Assembly: GCA_027621295.1 (NCBI GenBank)
Contig: JAQCBR010000003.1
Location: forward strand, 16,079-80,078
Reading direction: 5' to 3'
Length of the DNA stretch: 64,000 nucleotides
Source: Planctomycetota bacterium
GTDB taxonomy: Bacteria > Planctomycetota > UBA1135 > UBA2386
Numbering within the stretch: the stretch's first letter is position 1; every line of letters begins with the position of its first letter. Below the pieces are notes generated by a model, which was not told the origin of the DNA, did not search any database, and saw nothing but the letters and a program-made list of their open reading frames with translations. Below are positions 49,495-64,000 of the stretch, one piece after another. The position numbers were made by a program, and so were the translations under genes.

Positions 49495-50674
49495 TCCGGA
49501 CGTCGATGTAGGTCAGCTGGTGCTTGTAGTCGATCTTCGGCCGCGCGCCGACCGGGGCACCACCCTGGCCGCCTCCGCTGCCGCCGCCGCCTCCGCCGCC
49601 GCCCACCTTCGGGCCGTCGGTCGACTCCTCGTCACCGAACGGGACGATCGCCGTCACGTCTTCGTGGAAGAACGTGTTCTTGCGGACGGCCAGAGGCCCC
49701 TGCTCGAGCGCGAACGTCAGGCGGTAGTCACCGGCACCCTGGTTCATGTCCCGCACGTTCCACGTGTAGCCGTAGATCACGCGGCCCTTGATGTTGATCT
49801 CGGCCTTGTAGAAGCCGGGTCCGTCTCCGCTCTGCCAGACGCGACCGTCGTAGATGGGTGGTTCGATCAGGCGGGCGGCGGTCGCTGCGGGTTCGACCCA
49901 GCCAGCATCCCCACCCCAGTAGAGGTGCTCGGTCCGCGGGTCATCGCGGCGGATGTTCATCTTCTGGATCACGAATCGCACCGAGTGCGAGTAGACGGTG
50001 GCCTCTTCGCCGAGCCCGACCTGCGGCACGCCGGCCATCACCGCGAGGCCGTGCATCTCGGTCGCTCCCCAGCCCGACGTGTGGAGCATCGTGTACTGGA
50101 TCGGCGTTCCCGCCGGCTCCCAGCCACCGTGGACAGAGTCGTTGGTCCGCAGATCCTCGAGCAGAACGACCTCTGTCCGCACCTGCGAGCGGAGGTTCCA
50201 GTTGCGCGCTTCGAGGTTGTCGCCCCAGTCGACCCAGTCGACGAGGACAGGACCCTGCGCGTAGTCGTTCCACGCCTGCCAGACGTTGAACTCGTCCTTC
50301 TGGAGGAACGCCTGGAAGACCTCGTTGCCCGGGTGGTTCGCACCCGGCCTCGGTCCGGTCGCCCGGCCGGGAACCCCGTCGTCGCAGCGCGTGATGTCAT
50401 CGGGGTCGGGCGGGCAGCTCAGCGGCGTGTCATCGCCGGGGTTGATGCCCCACCAGTACCACCAGTCGCCGAGCAGGACGGGGAGTTCATCCGGGCTTCC
50501 CCGCAGCGTCAGCGCGACGCGGTCCGACCAGACGACCGGGACGGACAGGTTGTTGCCCGCCGTCTCTTCTTCGATCCGGCCGGCAGACTTCTGGGACGTG
50601 GCGGTCGTCGCCACGAAGAGTGCAGTGGAGATGGTCCACGCGGTGCGCAGTCCCCAGCTAGAGAGCTTCTTCAT
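49475..50674 (-). CDS. Secreted protein of unknown function with Gly-rich segment
   Basis: Signal MKKLSSWGLRTAWTISTALFVATTATSQ; Trp-rich DWWYWWGINPGDD; GGGGGGGGSGGGQGG near C-terminus. Confidence 0.65.
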   Translation of the reverse strand: MKKLSSWGLRTAWTISTALFVATTATSQKSAGRIEEETAGNNLSVPVVWSDRVALTLRGSPDELPVLLGDWWYWWGINPGDDTPLSCPPDPDDITRCDDGVPGRATGPRPGANHPGNEVFQAFLQKDEFNVWQAWNDYAQGPVLVDWVDWGDNLEARNWNLRSQVRTEVVLLEDLRTNDSVHGGWEPAGTPIQYTMLHTSGWGATEMHGLAVMAGVPQVGLGEEATVYSHSVRFVIQKMNIRRDDPRTEHLYWGGDAGWVEPAATAARLIEPPIYDGRVWQSGDGPGFYKAEINIKGRVIYGYTWNVRDMNQGAGDYRLTFALEQGPLAVRKNTFFHEDVTAIVPFGDEESTDGPKVGGGGGGGGSGGGQGGAPVGARPKIDYKHQLTYIDVRITASGR

Positions 50675-50752
50675 CATCGTCCTCCTGCGGGCCACGTGGC
50701 CCGCGCAGAGCAGGCAGCTCGCCCCGGGCGCGGGGTCGAGGACGATCCCCTC

Positions 50753-50767
50753 TCAAGGACCGTGCCG
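50753..50767 (-). promoter_or_regulatory. Sigma-54 (-24/-12)-like promoter element
   Basis: Minus strand CGGCACG-GTCC-TTGA versus consensus TGGCACG-N4-TTGC; about 80 nt upstream of ATG at 50674. Confidence 0.45.
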
Positions 50768-50802
50768 AACCATCGACGCGGGGTCAGAGTCCCCGACCGG
50801 CG

Positions 50803-50841
50803 AGGAGCGCATCCGCGATGCTGCCCCCCTGACGCGCTCCT
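50803..50841. promoter_or_regulatory. Inverted repeat between sigma-54 activator gene and candidate promoter
   Basis: AGGAGCGC (50803-50810) - 23 nt - GCGCTCCT (50834-50841), perfect 8-bp arms; could be enhancer site or terminator. Confidence 0.4.
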
Positions 50842-50885
50842 GCGCCCCGACGCCGCGGGTCAGTGGTCGATCCATGCCACACGCG

Positions 50886-52190
50886 TCAGTCCGAGGCAGG
50901 CAGTGATCGTGCGTCGAGCGCGCGCAGCTTGCGGTAGAGGCTCCGTTCGCTGATGCCGAGGATCCGCGCGAGCGACCTCCGATCCCCGCGGTGCGACGCG
51001 CTCGCCCACTCGAGGTACTGACGCTCTGCATCGGCGAGCGACACGATGTCCACACCTGCCGGGAGCCCCCCGGCAGGGTCATGGCCGAGCCAGTCCTCGG
51101 GGAGGTGCCGCTCCGCGATGGGCCCGCCGCCGGCTCGGAGCCAGGCCTGCTCGAGTCCATGGCGCAGTTCGCGCACGTTTCCCGGGAACGGCAGCCCAGC
51201 GAGCCGGCGTGCTGCGTCCTCTTCGAGTGCCGCTCCGTACGCGCCTCCGAGTTCGGCGAGCAGCGATCGGGCGAGCCCGGCAATGGCACGAGGCGTGGCC
51301 CGAAGCGCCGGTAGCCGCAGCGAGAACGTCGCCACCCGGTAGTAGAAGTCCCACCGCAGCCTGCCGCTCTCTGCCTTCGCACGCAGCCCCGGGTGTGCTG
51401 CGCAGATCAGACGGAAGTCGCTCGGGACCGATTCGCTGCTGCCGACGCGGCGGTAGGTGCGGGCCTCGAGGAGGCGAAGCAGCTTGAGCTGCACGTGCGG
51501 CGGCACGTCGCCGACCTCGTCCAGGAAGAGAGTCCCGCCGTCCGCCGCTGCGATGAGCCCGGCGCGACCGGCCGTCGCACCGGTGAACGCCCCCCGCTCG
51601 TGCCCGAAGAGTTCGCTGTCGAGGACCCCATCCCGGAAGTCCGCGCAGTCGACGGCGATGAAAGGTGCGGACGAGCGACGCGGATGGAGCGCATGGATCG
51701 CGCGCGCGAGCCGCTCCTTGCCGGTGCCCGTCTCGCCCTCGAGCAGTACCGACACGTCGGAGCCGAGAACGAGCGCGGTGTCGGCGAGGAGCCGGCTCGA
51801 GTCGGCATCCAGTTCGTCGCCCGGTTCGGCGAGGACCAGGAGGCATGCGGTCTCGGAACCGCGGCGCCCTCCGGGGATCGGTAGCGCGTGGACCAGAGCG
51901 GTGCGCGCGCAGGGCGCAGTGCCGTCCGGCGGCCGTGGCCCCACGTGGACGGGCTCGCGAACGTCGACGCAACGCGCGACCGGACAGCCGTCCGAACCCA
52001 CGGCGCAGCGGGCGCTCCGCCCCAGGATCGCACCGTGGCACGTCGAACGCCCCGGGCCGAAGCACGCGTCGAACGCAGCATTGGTCTGCTGCAGCGTGCC
52101 ATCGGCTCCGACGATCGCCGCGCGCCGGAAGAAGTCCGGGGTCACGACTCCGGAGCCGGGCGGCTCGACCCGCTCCGCCGGATCCGACAT
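50886..52190 (-). CDS. Sigma-54-dependent transcriptional activator (PAS-like N-terminus, AAA+, Fis-type HTH)
   Basis: LLEGETGTGKERLARAIH, FGHERGAFTGATAGRAG (GAFTGA), GGTLFLDEVGDVP, FPGNVRELRHGLEQA, RRSLARILGISERSLYRKLRAL. Confidence 0.95.
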   Translation of the reverse strand: MSDPAERVEPPGSGVVTPDFFRRAAIVGADGTLQQTNAAFDACFGPGRSTCHGAILGRSARCAVGSDGCPVARCVDVREPVHVGPRPPDGTAPCARTALVHALPIPGGRRGSETACLLVLAEPGDELDADSSRLLADTALVLGSDVSVLLEGETGTGKERLARAIHALHPRRSSAPFIAVDCADFRDGVLDSELFGHERGAFTGATAGRAGLIAAADGGTLFLDEVGDVPPHVQLKLLRLLEARTYRRVGSSESVPSDFRLICAAHPGLRAKAESGRLRWDFYYRVATFSLRLPALRATPRAIAGLARSLLAELGGAYGAALEEDAARRLAGLPFPGNVRELRHGLEQAWLRAGGGPIAERHLPEDWLGHDPAGGLPAGVDIVSLADAERQYLEWASASHRGDRRSLARILGISERSLYRKLRALDARSLPASD

Positions 52191-52270
52191 GGCGGGACAA
52201 CGCCGGGCGATCGCTCGCCTTTCCGGAGCAGCACCCGACCCCGACGGATCGGGCCGAGGCCGCGTCCGAC

Positions 52271-52999
52271 TCAGGAACCGAGAAGCTGTCGGATGCTCGG
52301 CTCGATCGTGTCAGCCCAGCGGCGGTAGCCCTCGGGCGACAGATGCAGCGCGTCCGGCATCACGGTCTTCGAGATCGAGCCGTCGTCCTCGACGAAGGTC
52401 GCGCCGATGTCGAGGAAGTGCACCTGCTCGTCCTCGAGACGCGCCAGAGCCTGGTTCACCTGGAGGATGTCACCCCGCATCGCGTTGAACCGCTCTCCCC
52501 TCGGGAAGATGCCGAGCAGCAGGATCGCCATGTCGGGCCGCTTCGCGCGAAGGCTCGCGATCACCGCCTGGATGCCCTCGAGGACCTGGGGCGCCTCGTG
52601 CGTCCCGTGCCCGAAGTTGTTCGTGCCGATCATCACGACCGCGAGCTTGGGCTGCAGCCCGTCGAGGTTGCCGTTCTCGAGCCGCCAGAGCACGTGCTCG
52701 GTGCGATCTCCCGAGATGCCCAGGTTCGCCGCGCGGCGCTTCGCGTAGCGGTCCGCCCACACTTCCCTGCCCTCGTCCTCGAAGCCCTCGGTGATCGAGT
52801 CGCCGACGAAGATCAGGTCGCAGGCCCCCTTCATCGCGGCGACACGCGCGTTGATCCGCTCGTGTCGCTGGAGCGCACGGCCGTCGCGGGCCTCGGGCAG
52901 AGTGGCAGTGTTCACGGGCGGCTCGGGCGGCTCCTCGGTTTCCTGGGCAGTGGCGAACGGGGCGATGCAGAGAGAGGCGAGCAGGAGGCGTCGGATCAT
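52271..52999 (-). CDS. Secreted SGNH/GDSL-type hydrolase
   Basis: Signal MIRRLLLASLCIAPFATAQ; DLIFVGDSITEGFE, NLGISGDRTEHVLWRLENG, VVMIGTNNFGHG, DALHLSPEGYRRWADTI. Confidence 0.92.
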   Translation of the reverse strand: MIRRLLLASLCIAPFATAQETEEPPEPPVNTATLPEARDGRALQRHERINARVAAMKGACDLIFVGDSITEGFEDEGREVWADRYAKRRAANLGISGDRTEHVLWRLENGNLDGLQPKLAVVMIGTNNFGHGTHEAPQVLEGIQAVIASLRAKRPDMAILLLGIFPRGERFNAMRGDILQVNQALARLEDEQVHFLDIGATFVEDDGSISKTVMPDALHLSPEGYRRWADTIEPSIRQLLGS

Positions 53000-53119
53000 G
53001 GGACTGGGGTCGGGGGCGCCCAGCATAGCCTTGGAACGATGCCCGGGCGCTTGTGCGGCGCGGGGCCCGTCCTAGAGCCTCGCCGACGTGCACGCAGCGC
53101 GTTAGAGTCCTCGCCCCCC

Positions 53120-53335
53120 ATGTCCGACATCCGCAAGGTCTGGATCGAAGAAGGCTGCATCTCGTGCAGCCTGTGCCAGGACATCTGCGCGGACGTCTTC
53201 CTGGTCGAGGACGGGCTGGACTGCGTGGTGCGCGACGACGCTCCCAAGCACTTCGCGGCCAAGGACGAGGAGATCCGCGAAGCCGCCCAGGACTGTCCGG
53301 TCGAAGTCATCAAGTTTTCCGAGCGGGACGAGTGA
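53120..53335 (+). CDS. Ferredoxin
   Basis: VWIEEGCISCSLCQDICADVFLVEDG...AAQDCPVEVIKF; CxxCxxxxC plus distal CP. Confidence 0.9.
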   Translation: MSDIRKVWIEEGCISCSLCQDICADVFLVEDGLDCVVRDDAPKHFAAKDEEIREAAQDCPVEVIKFSERDE

Positions 53336-53400
53336 GTCGGGCGGTCGGGCCTTCCGACCTGTGACGGCTGGTCGAGAGTCCGCTATCCTCCGCCGGCCCC

Positions 53401-53847
53401 ATGTGGAACCTGAGCAAGAGCCTGGTGGCGCTCGCCGCGCTTGCGCTTCCCGTCGCCGACGAGCCGCAGACGGTCGACTTCGCGTCGCTGTCGGACTTCG
53501 AATACGTCGAGGGGATGGAGCTGCCGGCCCACGTGACCAAGCTCCACGAGAAGAAGATCCGCATCTCGGGCTTCATGGCCCGCGAGGTACAGGGCGAGGG
53601 GCCGGTCGAGTACTTCCTGCTGATCAACGACGCCTGCGGCTGCGAAGGGGTCCCGCTCCTCAACGAGATCCTGTTCTGCGCGATGCCGGAGGGCGAGAAG
53701 ACCGAGATCCTCCCCGGCTCGATCTCGCTCGTCGGCACGCTGTTCGTCGGTGAGATCGTCGAGGACGACTGCGTGATCGCGCTCTACTGCCTGGACGTCG
53801 ACAAGATCGAGTCGGGCTCGCGGTCGGGGTCGGGGTCGGGGAGCTGA
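53401..53847 (+). CDS. DUF3299-like secreted protein
   Basis: KKIRISGFMAREVQGEGPVEYFLLINDACGCEGVPLLNEILFCAMPEG; N-terminal hydrophobic segment. Confidence 0.65.
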   Translation: MWNLSKSLVALAALALPVADEPQTVDFASLSDFEYVEGMELPAHVTKLHEKKIRISGFMAREVQGEGPVEYFLLINDACGCEGVPLLNEILFCAMPEGEKTEILPGSISLVGTLFVGEIVEDDCVIALYCLDVDKIESGSRSGSGSGS

Positions 53848-53861
53848 ACCACCGGAGAAAG

Positions 53862-55028
53862 ATGCGCACTGCGCTGATCACGCTCGGCCTCCTCTTCGCG
53901 GCGAGCGGAGCGCTCCCCGCACAGGACACCGCGGACCCGTTCGACGACGCGGTCCAGAAGGCGGTCACGCACGGCCGCTACGCGGTCCGCAGGGCCGCCG
54001 CGGGCAAGCTCGCCAGAGCCGGCGACGACGCGGTCCCCGCCATGCGTCGCTACGTCGACGCGCACGGGCTCGATGCGATCCCGCTCGAACTCGTCGACGC
54101 GCTCGCCCAGTCGGACGTGCGCGGGCCCGAGATCGAGGCGCTCCTCACCGAGTGGGCCGGCAACCGACGGTTCTTCTGGCGCTCCCAGGCGCTGGGTGGA
54201 CTCGCTCGGCGCGGCGTCGAAGGGGCCCGGCCGATGTTCGAGGCGGCGATCGGCGACCCTTCCCATCTGTTCCGGATCGAGGGAGCCCGCGGCCTGCTGA
54301 CCGTCGCGACCGACGACGAGGAAGCGACCGCCCGCGTGCGCGCGCGGCTCGGCGACGACGATCCCAGGGTGCGGCTGAGGGTCGCGCTCTTGCTGCTGGA
54401 GCGCGGCGACGGTGGCGGCGCCAGGCAGATCGGCGAGGCAGTCTTCGGCGCTGCACGGACGTTCCTCGATGACCGATGGGGTGCCCGGGAAGCGACGCTC
54501 GCGGTCCGCGAGCTGCAGCGCATCGCCGGCCTCGACGTGGCCGCGATCCTCGGCGACGACCTGGACGCGGCAGCCGAGGCCCGCGCCGTCGCGACCGCAT
54601 GGGTCCAGGGCGCAGCTCCGGACTACGAGCCGCCCGCCGCGCAACAGGAAGAGCCCCCGCCACTGCTGGGCGTCGAGGTCCGCTCGTGCCGCAACGGCGA
54701 CCTCTTCCTCTCGGTCTTCGCCGACGGGCGGGTCGCCGCCGGCCTCGATCCCCGCGTCGTGGTCGAGGTCGACGACCTCTCACGCCTCGTCCCCGGCGAC
54801 GCGCTCGACGGCGTTGCGACCCACGGCGCGATCATCTGCGACTTCGTCCGGGTGTACGTTTCTCCGACACCCGGCGAGCCCCCGCGCGCCCACCACAAGG
54901 CCGCTCCGGGCTCTGTGCCCGGGCCCGTCCTCGAATGGCTCAAGATGCTCGCCGCGACCCTCGATGAAACAGGGATCGGGGAGCCGCTGACCGTTCGGCT
55001 CGGACAGTTCGCCACGTCGGACGACTAG
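53862..55028 (+). CDS. Secreted HEAT-repeat-like protein
   Basis: Signal MRTALITLGLLFAASGALPAQ; helical repeats (AVRRAAAGKLARAGDDAVPAMRRYVD; DPSHLFRIEGARGLLTVAT; DPRVRLRVALLLLERGD). Confidence 0.7.
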   Translation: MRTALITLGLLFAASGALPAQDTADPFDDAVQKAVTHGRYAVRRAAAGKLARAGDDAVPAMRRYVDAHGLDAIPLELVDALAQSDVRGPEIEALLTEWAGNRRFFWRSQALGGLARRGVEGARPMFEAAIGDPSHLFRIEGARGLLTVATDDEEATARVRARLGDDDPRVRLRVALLLLERGDGGGARQIGEAVFGAARTFLDDRWGAREATLAVRELQRIAGLDVAAILGDDLDAAAEARAVATAWVQGAAPDYEPPAAQQEEPPPLLGVEVRSCRNGDLFLSVFADGRVAAGLDPRVVVEVDDLSRLVPGDALDGVATHGAIICDFVRVYVSPTPGEPPRAHHKAAPGSVPGPVLEWLKMLAATLDETGIGEPLTVRLGQFATSDD

Positions 55029-55037
55029 TAACCACCT

Positions 55038-58000
55038 ATGTGCGGAATCATCGCGGTGCTGCGTCGTCGCTCGAACCGGGCGGCGCCGGACCGGCACGTC
55101 GTCGCATCGACGCTGGCCCAGGCTCTCGGTCTGGACCTGGCGCTCGACGCCGGTCGCCTCGCCTCGGCGCTCACCGACTCTGCGGCACAGCTCGAGGAAC
55201 TCGATGCCGCGCTGCGCGGCACGGCTGGCATCCGCTGCCTGCTCGACAACCCGGACTTCGCCGATCGGATCCACGTCGAGCTCCGCGAGCTCGACGCCCG
55301 GGTCGACGACCTGGAGAACGAGCTCGACCGGCGCGCGCAGTCCTGGTCCGCCGCCGACGTCGAGAGCGTGAACGCCGCGCTGGTCCGGCTCCGCGACGCA
55401 TCCTGGGCCGTGCACCGCGACCGACTCCGCACCGCCAGCGCAGTGCGCGAACTCGCTGGCACGAAGCCCTCGATCTCAACCGCGACGATCGACGCCTACG
55501 CGGCGATCCAGACCGCGCTGTCGTCCCTCGACAGGCTCGAGGTCCGCGGCCGTGACTCGGCGGGCGTCCACGTGATGGTCTCCGGACACGGGCTCGATCC
55601 GGACGACCCGGAGCTGGCCGAGGCACTCCACCGTCGCTCGGCGGACTCCCTGTTCCGCAGCGGCTCCGTGCGCAGCCTCGACGGAGGACGCGTGCTCGGC
55701 TTCGTCTACAAGACGGCGGCCGAGATCGGCGAGCTCGGCGACAACGTCCGCGCGCTCCGCTGCGCGATCACCGAGGACGACCTGCTGCGTCGTGCGGTGA
55801 GCGCAGACTCCGCAGAGGTGACGGTGCTCGGGCACACCCGCTGGGCGAGCGTCGGCATCATCAGCGAGCCGAACGCCCACCCGCTGGAGGCATGGGAGAC
55901 CGACGGACCGACCGAGCCCTACGTGGTCGCGGCCCTGAACGGCGATGTCGACAACCATCTCGCGCTCGTCGACGAGCACGATCTCCGGATCGCGCCGGAG
56001 ATCACCACCGATGCGAAGGTGATCCCGACCCTGGTGGCGCGCCGGATCCGCGAGGGCATGGCCCGCGCCGAGGCCTTCCGCGCGACGGTCGCGACCTTCG
56101 AGGGCTCCACCGCGATCGGCGCCAGCGCCGCCGAGGCACCCGACGAGCTCCTGCTCGCCCTTCGCGGCAGCGGCCAAGCGCTGTACGTCGGGCTCGCCGA
56201 AGACGCGTTCGTCGTCGCGAGCGAACCCTACGGCGTCGTCGAAGACTGCCCGCGCTACCTGCGGATGGACGGGGAGACCCCCGGCAACCCGAACAACCCG
56301 ACCGCGAGCCGCGGCCAGGTGGTGCGCCTCGTGCGGGAACACGCCGGCACCGTGGCCGGCATCGAGCGCATCGCGTTCGACGGCACGCCGCTGCCCCTCG
56401 AGGACGCCGGGCTGACCCGCTCCGCGATCACCACGCGTGACGTCGACCGGGGAGCTTTCCCCCACTTCCTGCTGAAGGAGATCTCCGAGTCGCCGCGCTC
56501 GTTCCGCAAGACCCTCCGCGGGCGCATCGTCGAGGACGGTGGTCGCCTCCGCGTCCAGCTCGGCGGCACGTCGCTACCCGTCTCGGTCCGAGACGGCCTG
56601 CGGGACGGGCGGATCAAGCGGATCCTGACGATCGGTCAGGGAACGGCGGCCGTGGCTGCCCAGGGGGTCGCGACGGCGCTCGACCTGGCCCTCCGCGGCT
56701 CCGCGCTCAGCGTCGCCTCCCTGCCTGCGACCGAGCTGTCCGGGTTCCAGATGCGGCCCGACATGTCCGACACGCTGATCGTCGCGATCAGCCAGTCGGG
56801 CACCACGACCGACACCAACCGGACCGTCGACCTGGTCCGCGCACGCGGCGCTTCCGTGATCGCGATCGTCAACCGCCGCGGATCGGACCTGACCGACAAG
56901 TCGGACGGCGTGATCTACACGAGCGACGGCCGCGACGTGGAGATGAGCGTCGCGTCGACGAAGGCGTTCTACGCGCAGATCGCCGCTGGCTTCCTGCTGG
57001 CGTTCGCGGTCGCGCAGGAGTCGGGCTCCTGCGATCCCAGGCTCCAGCACGAGGTCCTGTCGGCGCTCCGCTCGCTGCCCGAAGCGATGACCGCGACGCT
57101 GCAGCGTCGCGACGCGATCGCGAAGGCCGCGCGCGAGACGACGCGACGCCGCTACTGGGCGCTCGTGGGCAACGGCAGCAACCTGATCGCCGCGCGTGAG
57201 ATCCGCATCAAGCTGTCGGAGCTCTGCTACAAGTCGATCGCCTGCGACGCGACCGAGGACAAGAAGCACATCGACCTGTCCTCCGAGCCGCTGATCCTCT
57301 GCTGCGCCGCGGGGCTCGGCGGATCCACCGCGGACGACGTCGCCAAGGAAGTCGCGATCTATCGCGCGCACAAGGCGCTGCCGATCGTGATCGCCGACGA
57401 CGGGGAGGAACGCTTCCAGGCCGCCGCGCACGTGATCCGCGTGCCCCACGTCCACCAGTCGCTCGCGTTCGTCCTCTCGACGGTCGCCGGCCACTTGTTC
57501 GGCTACGAGTGCGCGCTCGCGATCGACGAGCTGGCGATGCCGCTCCGCGAGGCCCGCGCGGCGATCGAGCGCAACGCGCGCGAGATCGCTGACGGGGAGG
57601 CTCTGCTCCGCGCGCTGTCGCGGGATCTCGAGGTCGCCGCCAGGTCGTTCTTCGGAGCTCTGCGCGACCGCCGCCTCGACGGCAGCCTCGAGGCAGCGAC
57701 CGCGACCCGGCTCGCCACCCTGCTGCGGATGGCGACCGGCTCGATGGCGATCGACGCGTTCCAGGTCGAGTTCGGCGAGGTCGGGACACCGGCGCGCGTC
57801 GTCGACGAGCTGACCGACGCGCTGACCGCGGCCATCGAGGAGCTGACCCGCCCCGTCGACGCGATCAAGCACCAGGCGAAGACCGTGACGGTCGGCATCT
57901 CCCGCTCGGACGAGTCGCTGACCAGCGAAGGCCTCGTACGCGAGCTGCTGGAACTGGGGACGCCGCGGGAGCACCTCACCTGGGCCGACCTGCGGACGCT

Positions 58001-58487
58001 CGCAGCACTGTCGCCCGCTGTCGCATCGGTCACGGGCTTCAGCCGCTACGCGCTATCGGGAGACGACGGCCTCGACGAGATCCGTCAGATCGACGCCGGC
58101 GGCATCGCGCGCGGGATGCGCTCGCGCACCGCACAGGATGCCCGCCTGCGGGGCACCAAGCACCAGGTCGCCCGCGAGAAGCGACTCCTCGTCGCGCGCG
58201 GGGCGAGCGACGAACGGATCTTCGTCCTGGTGCCCGAGGTCAGGGACGGCCGGCCGGTCGGGCTCACGCTGCTCCACATCGACCTGCACCACGCGCTGCC
58301 CGCGAACGACGCACGCAGCGTGCTCGTCGCCTACCGCGGTCGCTACGCCGAGCTGAGCGAGCTCGTCACGGAGACCGAGCCGCACTTCGACGACGAGCGC
58401 CTCGGCAGGGTCCCGCTCGCCGATCTCCTGACCGAGCCCGTCGAGGAGCTCGCCCGGGTCTGGCGCAGCGCCCACCGGCCCGCCTGA
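55038..58487 (+). CDS. Oversized GlmS-like protein (glutamine-fructose-6-phosphate aminotransferase-like) with insertions and C-terminal extension
   Basis: MCGIIAV N-terminus, VRGRDSAG, GHTRWASVG, NGDVDNH, HFLLKEISESPRSFRKTLRGRI, VAISQSGTTTDT, MSVASTKAF, second SIS region, HQAKTVTVG tail motif; 1149 aa. Confidence 0.9.
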   Translation: MCGIIAVLRRRSNRAAPDRHVVASTLAQALGLDLALDAGRLASALTDSAAQLEELDAALRGTAGIRCLLDNPDFADRIHVELRELDARVDDLENELDRRAQSWSAADVESVNAALVRLRDASWAVHRDRLRTASAVRELAGTKPSISTATIDAYAAIQTALSSLDRLEVRGRDSAGVHVMVSGHGLDPDDPELAEALHRRSADSLFRSGSVRSLDGGRVLGFVYKTAAEIGELGDNVRALRCAITEDDLLRRAVSADSAEVTVLGHTRWASVGIISEPNAHPLEAWETDGPTEPYVVAALNGDVDNHLALVDEHDLRIAPEITTDAKVIPTLVARRIREGMARAEAFRATVATFEGSTAIGASAAEAPDELLLALRGSGQALYVGLAEDAFVVASEPYGVVEDCPRYLRMDGETPGNPNNPTASRGQVVRLVREHAGTVAGIERIAFDGTPLPLEDAGLTRSAITTRDVDRGAFPHFLLKEISESPRSFRKTLRGRIVEDGGRLRVQLGGTSLPVSVRDGLRDGRIKRILTIGQGTAAVAAQGVATALDLALRGSALSVASLPATELSGFQMRPDMSDTLIVAISQSGTTTDTNRTVDLVRARGASVIAIVNRRGSDLTDKSDGVIYTSDGRDVEMSVASTKAFYAQIAAGFLLAFAVAQESGSCDPRLQHEVLSALRSLPEAMTATLQRRDAIAKAARETTRRRYWALVGNGSNLIAAREIRIKLSELCYKSIACDATEDKKHIDLSSEPLILCCAAGLGGSTADDVAKEVAIYRAHKALPIVIADDGEERFQAAAHVIRVPHVHQSLAFVLSTVAGHLFGYECALAIDELAMPLREARAAIERNAREIADGEALLRALSRDLEVAARSFFGALRDRRLDGSLEAATATRLATLLRMATGSMAIDAFQVEFGEVGTPARVVDELTDALTAAIEELTRPVDAIKHQAKTVTVGISRSDESLTSEGLVRELLELGTPREHLTWADLRTLAALSPAVASVTGFSRYALSGDDGLDEIRQIDAGGIARGMRSRTAQDARLRGTKHQVAREKRLLVARGASDERIFVLVPEVRDGRPVGLTLLHIDLHHALPANDARSVLVAYRGRYAELSELVTETEPHFDDERLGRVPLADLLTEPVEELARVWRSAHRPA

Positions 58488-58506
58488 GACGCGCCGCGGT
58501 CTCGGG
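58483..58506. terminator. Bidirectional stem-loop between convergent genes
   Basis: CCTGAGAC-gcgccgcg-GTCTCGGG, 8 bp including one G-U, contains the + strand stop. Confidence 0.6.
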
Positions 58507-59565
58507 TCAGTCCTCGGCGAGCAGCTCGGCGACGCGCTTGGCCAGCTCCTCGCCGCGCAGGTTCGTGAAGCGGACCTGGCCCTTCTTGTCGATCAGGAAC
58601 GTCGCCGGGATCGACCCGATGCCGTTCTCCTTCGCGAGCCGGGTCTCCCAACCGCCGCCCTCGTAGACGATCGACCAATCCATCCCGAGGCGGGTGGCGG
58701 CGTCGCGGATCTTCTGCGTGGTCGCGCCCTCGGCGTCCGGCGCTACGAGCGGACCGCCGCGCTTCTGGCCGGGCTCCTGGTCGAGGCTGATGCCGATCAC
58801 CTCGAAGCCCTGCTCGCGGTGCGCCTTGTGCGCCGCGACGACGTTCGGCATCTCGCGGATGCACGGCCCGCACCACGTCGCCCAGAAGTCGACGAGCACG
58901 ACCTTGCCCTTCATCTTCGCGAGGTCGATCTCCTGCCCGTCCATGTCACGCGCGGTGAACGGCTTCAGGCTGCCGCGTCCTGCACCTGCGACCTTCGGCG
59001 CCGCAGACGGCACGTAGAGCGCCTTCAGCAGCTTCTGCCTGGCCTCAGCATCCAGCCGATCGTCGTCGAACATCGCGGCGAGCGCCGCGTCGGCGAACGC
59101 GACCCCCGGTGCGGACTCGGCGCGGAGGCCCGCGCTCACCGCCGTCCGGTAGACCATCCCCGGGTCGTCGTAGTAGCGCGCCGCCGCCGGCATGTCGGCG
59201 CGCGCGCGCTCGAAGTCCGCGGCGCGCACCGCGCGTACCATGTCGGACATCAGCGAGCGACCGACGATCGTGTCGAAGTCCGCGGTCGGCAGAGCGCCGA
59301 GCCGGTCGATCTCGGCGAGCAGGACCTGGGCCGAGCCGTCGTAGTCCTTCGTGAAGTAGCGGGCCACGCCGAGCACGAACCGATGGTCGCCGAGGTCGCG
59401 GTCGACGTTCTTCTCGATCCAGGTGGCGATCGCCGCGTCGCGGGCCTTCCACTCCTCGACCGGGCGCTTGGTCAGCGCGAGCTCGCGGAGCTCGGCGATG
59501 ACGGGGTCCTGGGCCGGGGCGATGCTCGTGAGCGCGAGCGAGAGCAGACAGACAGAGATGCGCAT
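58507..59565 (-). CDS. TlpA-like thioredoxin-domain protein, secreted
   Basis: Signal MRISVCLLSLALTSIAPAQ; DMDGQEIDLAKMKGKVVLVDFWATWCGPCIREMPNVVAAHKAHREQGFEVIGISLD; WCGPC. Confidence 0.92.
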   Translation of the reverse strand: MRISVCLLSLALTSIAPAQDPVIAELRELALTKRPVEEWKARDAAIATWIEKNVDRDLGDHRFVLGVARYFTKDYDGSAQVLLAEIDRLGALPTADFDTIVGRSLMSDMVRAVRAADFERARADMPAAARYYDDPGMVYRTAVSAGLRAESAPGVAFADAALAAMFDDDRLDAEARQKLLKALYVPSAAPKVAGAGRGSLKPFTARDMDGQEIDLAKMKGKVVLVDFWATWCGPCIREMPNVVAAHKAHREQGFEVIGISLDQEPGQKRGGPLVAPDAEGATTQKIRDAATRLGMDWSIVYEGGGWETRLAKENGIGSIPATFLIDKKGQVRFTNLRGEELAKRVAELLAED

Positions 59566-59601
59566 GGTCTTCGGTTCCGGTGGGGACGCGGGTCCGGGAG
59601 C

Positions 59602-60915
59602 CTAACGGGATCCGGGCCCGGGATTGAGTTCGAGCGACAGGCGGAGCGGCTCTTCCGACGTCTCGGTCGGAGCCTCGACGACCCGCCGGAACGCCTCGGT
59701 CCCGTCCACGCGACGGCCGAGCAGCCTGATCTCGGTCCCCGGACGAACGACGAACTCCCCGCCGAGCGCCGGGCGCCGCAGCTCCGGGTAGCCGTCTCCG
59801 AACCGCGGCGTCAGCACCCGGGCGCTGGCCTCGCTCCCGGCCTCGACGTCGAGAACGAGGCCGTCGTCGGCCACCGGATCCCAGCCGTAGACGTCGACGA
59901 CGACGCGCACCGCGGGTTCGACCGCGACCTCCGCGCGGTCGCCGGAGAGGTCGACCGGCTCGACGGAGCGGTACGTGCCGCGCACGCCGAAGACCAGGAG
60001 TCGGCGCGGACCCTCGAGCGCCGGCAGGGTCATGTCCGCGCGGTGCCACTTGTACGGCCCCCACCACGTCCGCTCGGGGAGATCCTGGAGCAGCTCCACC
60101 GCGGGCTGCGCGTGGACCCGTGCCGGGAACTCCTCGGCCGGCAGGCCCCCAAGCTCGACGTCGACGCGCGCGCGGTTCTCGACGAGGTCCAGGACCAGCG
60201 GGCGCGACGGCTCCTCGACGCGGACCTGCGGCGAACCCCCGGCCACGACGAGCTCGCCCTCGGGCAGCACCCCGATGGCGTAGCTGCCGGCCGGCAGCGG
60301 CAGGTCGAAAGCCTGGACGCCGGGACGGAGCACACCCGGCTGCTCGAACCGCGACCCGGTCCCGTCCTCGAGGCGCGAGAGGACGACCTTGGGCGCGATG
60401 CCGTAGCGCGGCGCGTATTCGGCGCGGACCTCGACGCGCACGGGCCGCACGCCGGCCGCCTCGACCAGCACCGCCTCGACGACGCCGACCCCGACCTCGA
60501 CGCGCGCGGTTCGCGGTGCGACGTCGCGCGGCGACGCGCCTGGCCCGCAGACCACGTAGTGGCCGGGCTCGAGGCCGTCGGCCACCGCGCGGCCGTCGGT
60601 TCCGGTCCGCAGCGTGACCCGATACTCGGGCAGCGCCATCTTGCCGGGAGTGAACGAGTAGACCTGCAGGCTCTGCCCGGCGACCGGTGTCCGCATGTCG
60701 GCGCGGAGGAGCTCACAGACAAGCCCTCGCGTCGGCGCCGTGCGATCCGGAGCGTCCGGAACTGCGGCCGGCCCGGGGCCCGGCTCGTCGACCGCCTCGA
60801 CCGGCGAACCCTCGGGGAACCCGGCCGGTGCAGCTCCGCCGCCCCCGCCGCGCACGAGGAGGAACGCGGCCGCGAGGCCTGCGGCCACCACGAGCCCGAA
60901 GACGAGTGCGCGCAT
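59602..60915 (-). CDS. Secreted/anchored protein with carboxypeptidase-regulatory-like beta-sandwich domains
   Basis: MRALVFGLVVAAGLAAAFLLVRGGGGG; TLRTGTDGRAVADGLEPGHYVVCGPG; 4-nt overlap with upstream gene. Confidence 0.65.
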   Translation of the reverse strand: MRALVFGLVVAAGLAAAFLLVRGGGGGAAPAGFPEGSPVEAVDEPGPGPAAVPDAPDRTAPTRGLVCELLRADMRTPVAGQSLQVYSFTPGKMALPEYRVTLRTGTDGRAVADGLEPGHYVVCGPGASPRDVAPRTARVEVGVGVVEAVLVEAAGVRPVRVEVRAEYAPRYGIAPKVVLSRLEDGTGSRFEQPGVLRPGVQAFDLPLPAGSYAIGVLPEGELVVAGGSPQVRVEEPSRPLVLDLVENRARVDVELGGLPAEEFPARVHAQPAVELLQDLPERTWWGPYKWHRADMTLPALEGPRRLLVFGVRGTYRSVEPVDLSGDRAEVAVEPAVRVVVDVYGWDPVADDGLVLDVEAGSEASARVLTPRFGDGYPELRRPALGGEFVVRPGTEIRLLGRRVDGTEAFRRVVEAPTETSEEPLRLSLELNPGPGSR

Positions 60916-62207
60916 CAGGCGGGAAGTCCGTGGTCGAGGACGTCCTGCACCGCAGCGACGAAGCGGTCCACCTCGCCGAGCGTCGCGTACACGCTCGGCG
61001 ACACGCGGATGCCCTCGAAGTCCTCGTGGACGATCGGCGTCGTGATGATGCGGTGCTTGGCGAGCAGATGCCTGCCGAGCGCCTGCGAGTCGATGCCCTC
61101 GATCCGGAAGTTCGCGATGCCCCCCGCCATCCCCGGCACGAGGCTCGTGTTGAGCCGGAACCGCTCGTCCCCGCGGAGCGCGTGGATCCACCGGTCGCGC
61201 AGGTGGACGAGCCGCGCGAGCTTCCGCGCCGCGCCGAGCCTCTCGTGGAACACGAGCGCTTCGGCGACGCCCAGAGGGACGCCGACCGGGTGCGTGCCGA
61301 TCTCCTCGAACTTGCGGATGTCGTCTTCCTGGCCCGGGTTCCCGGCCATCAGCGGCCAGAGATCGCGGATGCGCTCCTTCCGCACGTAGAGCATCCCGGT
61401 GCCGATCGGCGCGAACAGCCACTTGTGCAGGCTGGTCGCGTAGTAGTCGCAGTCGAGGTCGGCGAAGTCGAAGTCGAGGTGCGCGAACGCATGCGCGCCG
61501 TCGACGATCACCGGCACGCCGCGCTCGCGGCCGAGCGCGACGACTTCCTTCACCGGCAGGACCTGCCCCGTCAGGTTGATGACATGGCTGACCAGCACGA
61601 TCCGCGTGCGGTCGGTCATGTGCGCGCGGTAGAGCGCGACGATCTCCGCCGGGTCGTTGCACGGCGTCGGGATCTTGAACTGCCGGACGACGATCCCCTC
61701 CCGCGCGGCACGCTGCGCGAACGTGTTGCGCATCCGCGGGTAGTCCTGGTCGGTGCACAGCACCTCGTCCCCGGCCTCCAGGTCGATCCCGAACTGGCAG
61801 GTCTGGAGCCCCTCCGAAGCGTTGCGCGTGATCGCGACCTCGTCCGCGCTGACCCCCATCACGCGCGCCAGCGCCTGCCGCACCGCCTCCTTCTGCGGCT
61901 GCATCAGCCGCCACATGTTGTAGGCCGGCGCCTCGTTGGCGCGGTCGATGTGCCGCTTGACCGCGTCGACGACGAGCCGCGGCGCCGGGCTCACCCCACC
62001 GTTGTTGAAGTTGACGAGGCCGCGGTCGACGTCGAACGCGGAGGCCACCGCCCCCCAGAAGTCCTCGTCGCGCGCCAACTCCTCGGGACTCGCGTCCCGA
62101 GGAGACAGTTCGTCGAGGACGCGGAGCCCGCGGAACGGATCGAGCGCCGAGGCCGACCCGACGGTCGGCAGCGCGAGAGCTCCGAGGAACGCGCGGCGGG
62201 TGGTCAT
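60915..62207 (-). CDS. Class V PLP aminotransferase (isopenicillin-N-epimerase-like) with Tat-like signal
   Basis: MTTRRAFLGALALPTVGSASA; NFNNGGVSPAPRLV, ITRNASEGLQTCQFGIDLEAGDEVLCTDQDYPRM, VIVDGAHAFAHLDFDFADLDCDYYATSLHKWLFAPIGTGMLYVRKE. Confidence 0.93.
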   Translation of the reverse strand: MTTRRAFLGALALPTVGSASALDPFRGLRVLDELSPRDASPEELARDEDFWGAVASAFDVDRGLVNFNNGGVSPAPRLVVDAVKRHIDRANEAPAYNMWRLMQPQKEAVRQALARVMGVSADEVAITRNASEGLQTCQFGIDLEAGDEVLCTDQDYPRMRNTFAQRAAREGIVVRQFKIPTPCNDPAEIVALYRAHMTDRTRIVLVSHVINLTGQVLPVKEVVALGRERGVPVIVDGAHAFAHLDFDFADLDCDYYATSLHKWLFAPIGTGMLYVRKERIRDLWPLMAGNPGQEDDIRKFEEIGTHPVGVPLGVAEALVFHERLGAARKLARLVHLRDRWIHALRGDERFRLNTSLVPGMAGGIANFRIEGIDSQALGRHLLAKHRIITTPIVHEDFEGIRVSPSVYATLGEVDRFVAAVQDVLDHGLPA

Positions 62208-62238: not shown

Positions 62239-64000
62239 TCAGTGCAGGTCGAGGACCCCGCGCACGCCGTCGAGCAGCGTCTCGACCGCGGCGCGGTAGT
62301 TCGTTCCGACAGCCAATGGGGTGTTCCAGGGCAGAGGGCTGCGCTCGACGACCTGGCCGAGCGCGACGACGGCGAAGGCCCGCGCGAGGTCGGGGGCGGA
62401 CTCGTCGGCAGCGAGCGCGAGCAGCGGTTCGAGCGAGCGGCGGTCGCCGATCAGGCCGAGGCCCGTTGCGATCGACGCGACCTGCGCGAGGGTCGGGCGT
62501 CCGTCCGCGAGGCCCGCCATCAGGAGTTCGGCGGCCTCGTGGTCACCCAGCGCGCCGAGCGCGACGGCCGCGTCGCGGAGACGCTGGGGACGACGCGCAG
62601 AGGTCTGCACGAGCTCTCGCAGCCGCGGGACCGCCCGCACGTCGCCGAGGAGCGCGAGCGCCGTGCAGAGGTGGCCGGCCACCTCGTCCTGGGACGCGAG
62701 TTCGTCGAGCAGGACGCGAATCCGGTCCGCTTCGTCCTCCGCGCGACACAGGCCCAGGGCGACTGCGAACGCGGCGCGGGCCTCGGGCGTCCTGACCTCT
62801 TCGAGCTGCGCCGCGAGCGCGGTGGCGACGGTCGAGTCCGTCGCGTCCTCGCCTGCAGCGCGAACGAGGATGCCGAGCCCGAGCGCAGCCCAGGGGCGGA
62901 CCAGAGCTCTCGTGCCCGTCGCGAGCTGCTCGAGCAGGTAGCTCCTCGCCTCTTCTCCGCCGATGCCACCGAGCCCGACGAGCGAGAAGAACCGGACCTG
63001 GTGGTCCTTCGCGTTGCGGCTCGCGTCGATGAGCGCACGGGCGGAAGCGGCCCGCCGGTCCGGATCGAGGCGAGGGCCGAGCGTGCCGACCGCGAGGGCT
63101 GCAGCGCGCTTCAGGTCGTCCCCAGCGTCCGCGTCGGACAAGGTCGCGGCAAAGCGGCCCGCGTGGAACGCCGCGAGCACCGACTCCGACGGCTCGTCGG
63201 CGAGGAGCCGCGCGAGCGAGGTCGCCGCATGGCAGCGCACCGTGTCGTGGCCCGGCCCACCGGCCCGGTCCCAGACGCGTCGAAGGTTCTCCAGCGCGCG
63301 AGCCCGGAGCCTTCGCGTCGCGCCGTCACTCCCCTGCGGGATCGCGATCCCGATGCCGAGGATCGCGGCGACCTCGAGGTCGCGGTCCTCGGTCTCCCCG
63401 TCGAGCAGACGCTCCAGCGTCGCGACCACCGTCGACTGGAGTTCGATGGAGGCGGCACGCGCCGCGAACGCCAGCCCGTAGGCTGCGAACGCGCGGATCC
63501 GGTCCTCGACGCGCCCGCGGTCGACGCGCCGCCGCGCGGCGTCCGTGTCGAGGACCAGCGAATCGAGGATCGCGATGCCCTGCGCCGAGCCGCTCAGGCC
63601 CAGCGCAAGAGCCGCGGTCTCACGGACCTCCTGGTCGGGATCGCGCAGCCGTTCTTCGAGCAGCGGCACGACGTCGAAAGCCGCGCGGTCCTGCCCGACC
63701 TTCGCGAGCGCGATCATCGCCGCCGTCTCCAGATCGCGGTGTGGCTCGCCATCCAGCAGCGCACGCAGCCTGGGCGCGACGAGGTCGCGGACCATCTCGT
63801 CGGCCGGGGCCCGCGTGTCCGTTCCGCGCTGACGCCCGGCGCCCATGAAGAACTCGGCCGAGCCGGTGACGACCGACGGGGCGCGCACCGCTTCGCGGAG
63901 CCTCAGGTAGGGATCCCGGTTCAGCTCCCACCAGTCCTGCCAGCGAGTCGGGTCGGGGCCGAGCACGATCCCGCCGCCGGTGCTCGGGCCGCTGCCGCCC
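62239..64000 (-). CDS. HEAT-repeat protein (5' end beyond window)
   Basis: Frame open to window end; many HEAT units (DPDQEVRETAALALGLSGS, DLARAFAVVALGQV, RLRDAAVALGALGDHEAAELLMAGLADG); RWQDWWELNRDPYL near N-terminus. Confidence 0.8.
   Translation of the reverse strand, partial: GGSGPSTGGGIVLGPDPTRWQDWWELNRDPYLRLREAVRAPSVVTGSAEFFMGAGRQRGTDTRAPADEMVRDLVAPRLRALLDGEPHRDLETAAMIALAKVGQDRAAFDVVPLLEERLRDPDQEVRETAALALGLSGSAQGIAILDSLVLDTDAARRRVDRGRVEDRIRAFAAYGLAFAARAASIELQSTVVATLERLLDGETEDRDLEVAAILGIGIAIPQGSDGATRRLRARALENLRRVWDRAGGPGHDTVRCHAATSLARLLADEPSESVLAAFHAGRFAATLSDADAGDDLKRAAALAVGTLGPRLDPDRRAASARALIDASRNAKDHQVRFFSLVGLGGIGGEEARSYLLEQLATGTRALVRPWAALGLGILVRAAGEDATDSTVATALAAQLEEVRTPEARAAFAVALGLCRAEDEADRIRVLLDELASQDEVAGHLCTALALLGDVRAVPRLRELVQTSARRPQRLRDAAVALGALGDHEAAELLMAGLADGRPTLAQVASIATGLGLIGDRRSLEPLLALAADESAPDLARAFAVVALGQVVERSPLPWNTPLAVGTNYRAAVETLLDGVRGVLDLH

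Follow-up and report, generated by a model that had tools for sequence, protein, structure and literature searches.

The window, the whole 64,000-nucleotide stretch of Planctomycetota DNA analysed here, carries on its forward strand, at positions 55038-58487, an intact open reading frame of 1149 codons that begins with ATG, has no internal stops and encodes a protein of 1149 amino acids. Judged by its sequence, the product is a GlmS-type enzyme, with an N-terminal-cysteine glutaminase and two SIS domains, to which extra segments are added (Table 1). The DUF3299-like and HEAT-repeat genes upstream (53401-55028) are conserved there in related Planctomycetota and not in Acidimicrobiia, and a HEAT-repeat gene lies upstream in most f1-type Planctomycetota loci. 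No glmS ribozyme or other Rfam element was found within positions 50000-60000 of the window.

Table 1. Features of the long glmS gene and its neighbours (positions in the window; residues of the 1149-residue protein).
Feature	Position	Strand	Basis or remark
Sigma-54 activator	50886-52190	-	Ordinary neighbour
GDSL lipase	52271-53026	-	Ordinary neighbour
DUF3299-like protein, upstream	53401-53847	+	Pfam DUF3299, E 1.2e-4
HEAT-repeat protein, 9 bp upstream of long glmS	53862-55028	+	Pfam HEAT_2
Glutaminase first strand MCGIIAVLRRR, catalytic Cys2 (E. coli Cys1)	55038-55070	+	M1, C2, G3, I4 invariant in 67 members; whole-chain GlmS-like fold
Insert 1, residues 12-153, helical bundle between MCGI and the VRGRDSAG helix	55071-55496	+	Not in canonical GlmS; AlphaFold
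Remaining glutaminase domain, residues 154-430: RGRDSAG, HTRWA (R268, W269), N301-G302, D325	55497-56327	+	GATase_6; alignment to 4amv; conservation
SIS domain 1, residues 471-662: GQGT, SQSGTTTDT, EMSVASTKAF	56448-57023	+	Pfam SIS; TIGR01135; PDB GlmS matches
SIS domain 2, residues 663-832: K725, E728, H744 (E. coli K485, E488, H504)	57024-57533	+	TIGR01135 to residue 828; alignment; conservation
Insert 2, residues 833-939, helical, from SIS2 to catalytic tail	57534-57854	+	Not in canonical GlmS; AlphaFold
Motif DAIKHQAKTVTVGI of the catalytic tail, near residues 940-953; K948 = E. coli K603	57855-57896	+	Alignment; no variation at 13 of 14 positions across 67 proteins
C-terminal extension (residues 954-1149), an alpha/beta domain with a weak GAF/PAS resemblance	57897-58484	+	AlphaFold; Foldseek
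Thioredoxin-like (ResA/TlpA-type) protein	58507-59565	-	Ordinary neighbour
Cysteine-desulfurase-like PLP enzyme	60915-62207	-	Ordinary neighbour
HEAT-repeat protein	62239-63966	-	Ordinary neighbour

An initial annotation, made from the letters alone, had described a GlmS-like frame of 1149 residues with two large insertions and a C-terminal extension, and had suggested profile searches. Pfam recognises a single SIS domain (E 7.3e-20, residues 527-655) and GATase_6 (E 7.3e-8, residues 262-396), and the NCBIfam glmS model TIGR01135 matches residues 252-828 (E 6.4e-66) with 223 bits, about half of its equivalog cut-off of 418 bits. The description itself holds up: the frame is intact, and alignment with canonical GlmS puts the extra segments at residues 12-153, 833-939 and 954-1149, nearly at the coordinates first estimated. 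A smaller fourth insert, residues 185-223, lies inside the glutaminase domain in the same alignment.

One scan of species genomes returned at least 548 stretches that encode relatives; the best 80 of these share 54-62% identity with the protein, derive for the most part from Acidimicrobiia and Planctomycetota, and are nearly all full-length with the same MCGI start, well past what chance would give. Nothing speaks for a fusion made during assembly or an artefact of frame; this explanation, which we credit with practically no probability, is ruled out by hundreds of independent relatives, many of them full-length. The M1, C2, G3 and I4 residues are invariant in all 67 aligned proteins, which are 1128-1173 residues long and in which nearly all catalytic motifs are invariant as well. 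The long architecture occurs in more than 100 sampled Acidimicrobiia and in dozens of Planctomycetota genomes, down to 31% identity; when 392 Planctomycetota genomes were sampled, the gene turned up in 41, many of the copies at 34-50% identity. All three added segments are kept in each of 20 divergent members examined (31-54% identity). The sole match in a plasmid search was one partial Paenibacillus sequence, 28% identical over the shared core. We found no dedicated Pfam or NCBIfam model for the long form, and no description of such a clade in the open-licence papers searched.

In E. coli GlmS, Cys1 is the glutaminase residue, and Glu488, His504 and Lys603 act in isomerisation (PMC9272926). 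The long protein has the features of a class II glutaminase (the N-terminal Cys and the HTRWA, NG and D motifs), and its R268, W269, N301, G302 and D325 correspond to E. coli R73, W74, N98, G99 and D123, as judged by alignment to 4amv and by conservation. Two SIS domains with the catalytic Lys, Glu and His are present, as seen with TIGR01135, Foldseek and residues K725, E728 and H744, and the lysine of the catalytic tail is the invariant K948, in KHQAKTVTVG, the counterpart of PRNLAKSVTVE in GlmS. This tail is internal and not the chain end, with about 196 residues following it in every member examined. Residues C2, R268, W269, N301, G302, D325, K725, E728, H744 and K948 are kept throughout a set of 21 diverse members that reaches down to 31% identity, so that every residue needed to catalyse the complete reaction is conserved. 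About 33 aligned positions are fixed differently in the long and canonical forms, some around the active site, with motif changes from ELKHGP to EDKKHID, from RGYDSAG to RGRDSAG and from ACGT to GQGT. Given these fixed changes in the active-site region, the kinetics or substrate of the long enzyme could differ from the canonical. The altered substrate proposed at first reading is not supported, given the kept catalytic residues, the kept downstream GlmM and GlmU, and the way the protein stands in for GlmS. A Ser303-to-Ala change was dropped as a diagnostic of the long form, as Ala also occurs in the canonical enzymes compared.

Six divergent Planctomycetota members (L104, L105, L107, L108, L111 and L112) have no start codon directly before the catalytic Cys. 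At least four of them share a similar preceding segment that ends in an FFP-like motif, for example GTIVFFPRGGVTLG followed by CGIAA. Some other N-terminal-Cys amidotransferases have a cleaved propeptide, and the sequence of these segments suggests that they too are cleavable propeptides.

We also looked for a canonical glmS of about 600 residues elsewhere in the organism's own genome, a check raised by the initial annotation, and found none in an assembly that is 90% complete and could lack a copy; glmM and glmU are present. The long form occurs in 30 of the 34 genomes of the window's own family, the canonical form in none and neither in four. Elsewhere in the order, canonical GlmS is carried by 26 of the 27 genomes searched and the long form by the remaining one. 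Of 247 genomes in the Acidimicrobiia class, 100 carry the long form alone and 132 the canonical form alone, no genome has both, and in 15 neither was found; about 53 genomes with both would be expected if the two were independent, a figure that is descriptive since the genomes share ancestry. Canonical GlmS is likewise absent from 37 of 38 further Planctomycetota genomes with the long form, the exception being G356, and among nine more Actinomycetota genomes a single one, G734 (6.5 Mb), has both forms. No genome besides these two was found to carry both forms: the canonical copy of G356 is divergent and G734 is possibly mixed, and the double carriage may reflect contamination or a transitional state. 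The genomes with neither form, four in the window's own family (G001, G011, G012 and G018) and 15 in the Acidimicrobiia class, may reflect incompleteness or a third solution.

The gene order around the long form in Acidimicrobiia is rplM-rpsI-glmM-[long glmS]-acpS-nnrD, where glmM, acpS and nnrD were identified by search and the products of rplM and rpsI (L13 and S9) were named from sequence without a family search. At the canonical Acidimicrobiia loci examined, glmS follows glmM in 10 of 10, with acpS and/or nnrD beyond in most. Long and canonical glmS hold the same operon slot in this class.

Mutual exclusion and the common slot also bear on whether the product is GlcN-6-P at all. The protein might be a paralogous amidotransferase-isomerase that makes another amino sugar, with GlcN-6-P coming from reverse NagB or from salvage. 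The fixed substitutions near the isomerase site would fit such an enzyme, as would the organism's own NagB, which scores above cut-off and might run in reverse. Against this, the long and canonical forms exclude one another, both occupy the glmM-acpS slot, glmM and glmU are retained, and NagB gave no match in seven of the eight long-form Actinomycetota genomes searched; we consider a different product very unlikely. As NagB is missing from those seven genomes, reverse deamination by NagB was rejected as a general source of GlcN-6-P. The long GlmS appears to be its own genome's sole GlcN-6-P synthase, alongside GlmM and GlmU. The protein is very probably the organism's GlcN-6-P synthase and a member of an unnamed long subfamily that takes the place of the canonical enzyme in many genomes of Planctomycetota and Acidimicrobiia. 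Its GlmS-like function is strongly supported. That the long form is a distinct GlmS subfamily, as the initial annotation proposed, is well supported by full-length conservation, by the kept catalytic residues, by the near-complete exclusion between the two forms and by the shared Acidimicrobiia operon slot; as far as the literature searched goes, the subfamily is unnamed.

With canonical GlmS as the outgroup, only Planctomycetota occupy the deepest branches of the long forms in a tree, and the Acidimicrobiia form one clade adjoining the window's Planctomycetota family; the root is unsure because the branch to the canonical outgroup is very long. Two sequences reached through the Acidimicrobiia class (L114 and L115) fall just outside that clade. 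In glmM and ribosomal-protein trees, the long and canonical states are largely clustered, with few switches. The deep Planctomycetota branches and the position of the Acidimicrobiia clade beside the window's family suggest that long glmS was transferred from a Planctomycetota-like donor into the glmS slot of Acidimicrobiia. Alternatively, canonical GlmS may have gained its inserts in place, lineage by lineage and with no transfer across phyla, which would account for the unchanged operon slot in Acidimicrobiia. We regard such in-place growth as very unlikely, given that the long forms of both phyla group together, separated from the canonical enzymes by a very long branch, that they share about 33 fixed substitutions and have all inserts at the same places, and that the Acidimicrobiia are nested within a more diverse Planctomycetota set.

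An AlphaFold model, a check that the initial annotation had called for, was built from a 67-sequence alignment and is confident (mean pLDDT 89), with two helical inserts and a separately folding C-terminal domain. Foldseek aligns it to E. coli GlmS 2j6h with E 1.7e-27 and a TM of 0.77 on the target, and its core also matches human GFAT. Insert 1 is modelled as helices at residues 19-30, 38-59, 61-70, 72-102 and 105-140 (block pLDDT 80-96), and insert 2 as helices at 810-849, 853-876, 886-900, 907-912 and 918-937. Modelled alone, the C-terminal domain (residues 960-1149) reaches a pLDDT of 94. Neither a credible Pfam family or HMM match nor a credible PDB sequence match was found for this domain, and EngA/MMR_HSR1 was rejected as its identity, with E values of 0.02-1 at chance level. 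Its top Foldseek matches are weak and of GAF/PAS type (E 1e-3 to 2e-2, TM on the query mostly 0.25-0.38), a weak resemblance to sensor domains; a further weak match is to 7jsr, a large glutamate dehydrogenase (TM 0.55-0.56). The matches to GAF domains and to 7jsr lie at E 1e-3 to 3e-3, and TM values of 0.36-0.56 mark the structural matches as weak.

Altered regulation or assembly, as first proposed, is plausible by way of this GAF/PAS-like domain and the two helical inserts. It may well be, at a little short of even chances, that the protein is a normal GlmS whose extra segments just stabilise or oligomerise it and sense nothing, in keeping with inserts that are helical and less conserved (mean major-residue frequency 0.49 in insert 1) and with the weakness of the GAF/PAS resemblance. 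Nonetheless, none of the three segments has been lost even in relatives as distant as 31% identity, and the C-terminal domain combines 20 invariant residues with a confident independent fold. We tentatively raise, as possible rather than probable, an allosterically self-regulated GlmS in which the GAF/PAS-like domain, attached directly to the catalytic tail that shuts the sugar site, senses a metabolite and sets the flux into cell-wall precursors, a form that would have supplanted the usual GlmS in both phyla.

We infer that the long GlmS would convert glutamine and fructose-6-phosphate to GlcN-6-P. Removal of the initiator Met would expose Cys2, which would hydrolyse glutamine, and the ammonia would pass to the SIS pair, where K948 with E728 and H744 would catalyse both the transfer step and the isomerisation that turn fructose-6-phosphate into GlcN-6-P, leading on to UDP-GlcNAc via GlmM and GlmU. 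The helical inserts and the GAF/PAS-like C-terminal domain are predicted to regulate or assemble the enzyme; the domain might, for example, bind a metabolite and act on the catalytic tail to which it is directly joined.

The product of GlmS is the first committed precursor of the amino sugars of peptidoglycan, and GlmS is usually treated as a uniform enzyme of 600 residues. Here, an enzyme of twice that size appears to replace the standard one across much of an Actinomycetota class and many Planctomycetota, a clean case of a central metabolic gene replaced within the same operon slot. Family models miss or under-call the GlmS step in these lineages, and the organism's own genome would look glmS-less by the curated cut-off. 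The long form also offers a case for studying bacterial GlmS with putative built-in control.

Among known systems, the large glutamate dehydrogenase L-GDH180 (7jsr, PMC8175468) is a different enzyme with no sequence-level match to the C-terminal domain, and is at most a putative homologue. Canonical GlmS (TIGR01135; E. coli GlmS 1jxa/2j6h) shares with the long form the N-terminal Cys glutaminase, the two SIS domains, the catalytic Glu, His and Lys, the position in the pathway and the Acidimicrobiia operon slot. The long form differs in being 1149 rather than about 608 residues long, at roughly 23-29% identity, in its two helical inserts, one following residue 11 and the other following SIS2, in its fixed motif changes and score below the equivalog cut-off, and in an internal catalytic tail followed by about 200 residues, whereas the canonical tail ends the chain. 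To our knowledge, the regulation of eukaryotic GFAT does not depend on an added C-terminal domain. GFAT/GFPT1 is a regulated form of the enzyme, with feedback by UDP-GlcNAc (PMC9272926); like the long GlmS it is larger than bacterial GlmS and has the same catalytic fold, and the long GlmS differs from it in a catalytic tail that is not terminal.
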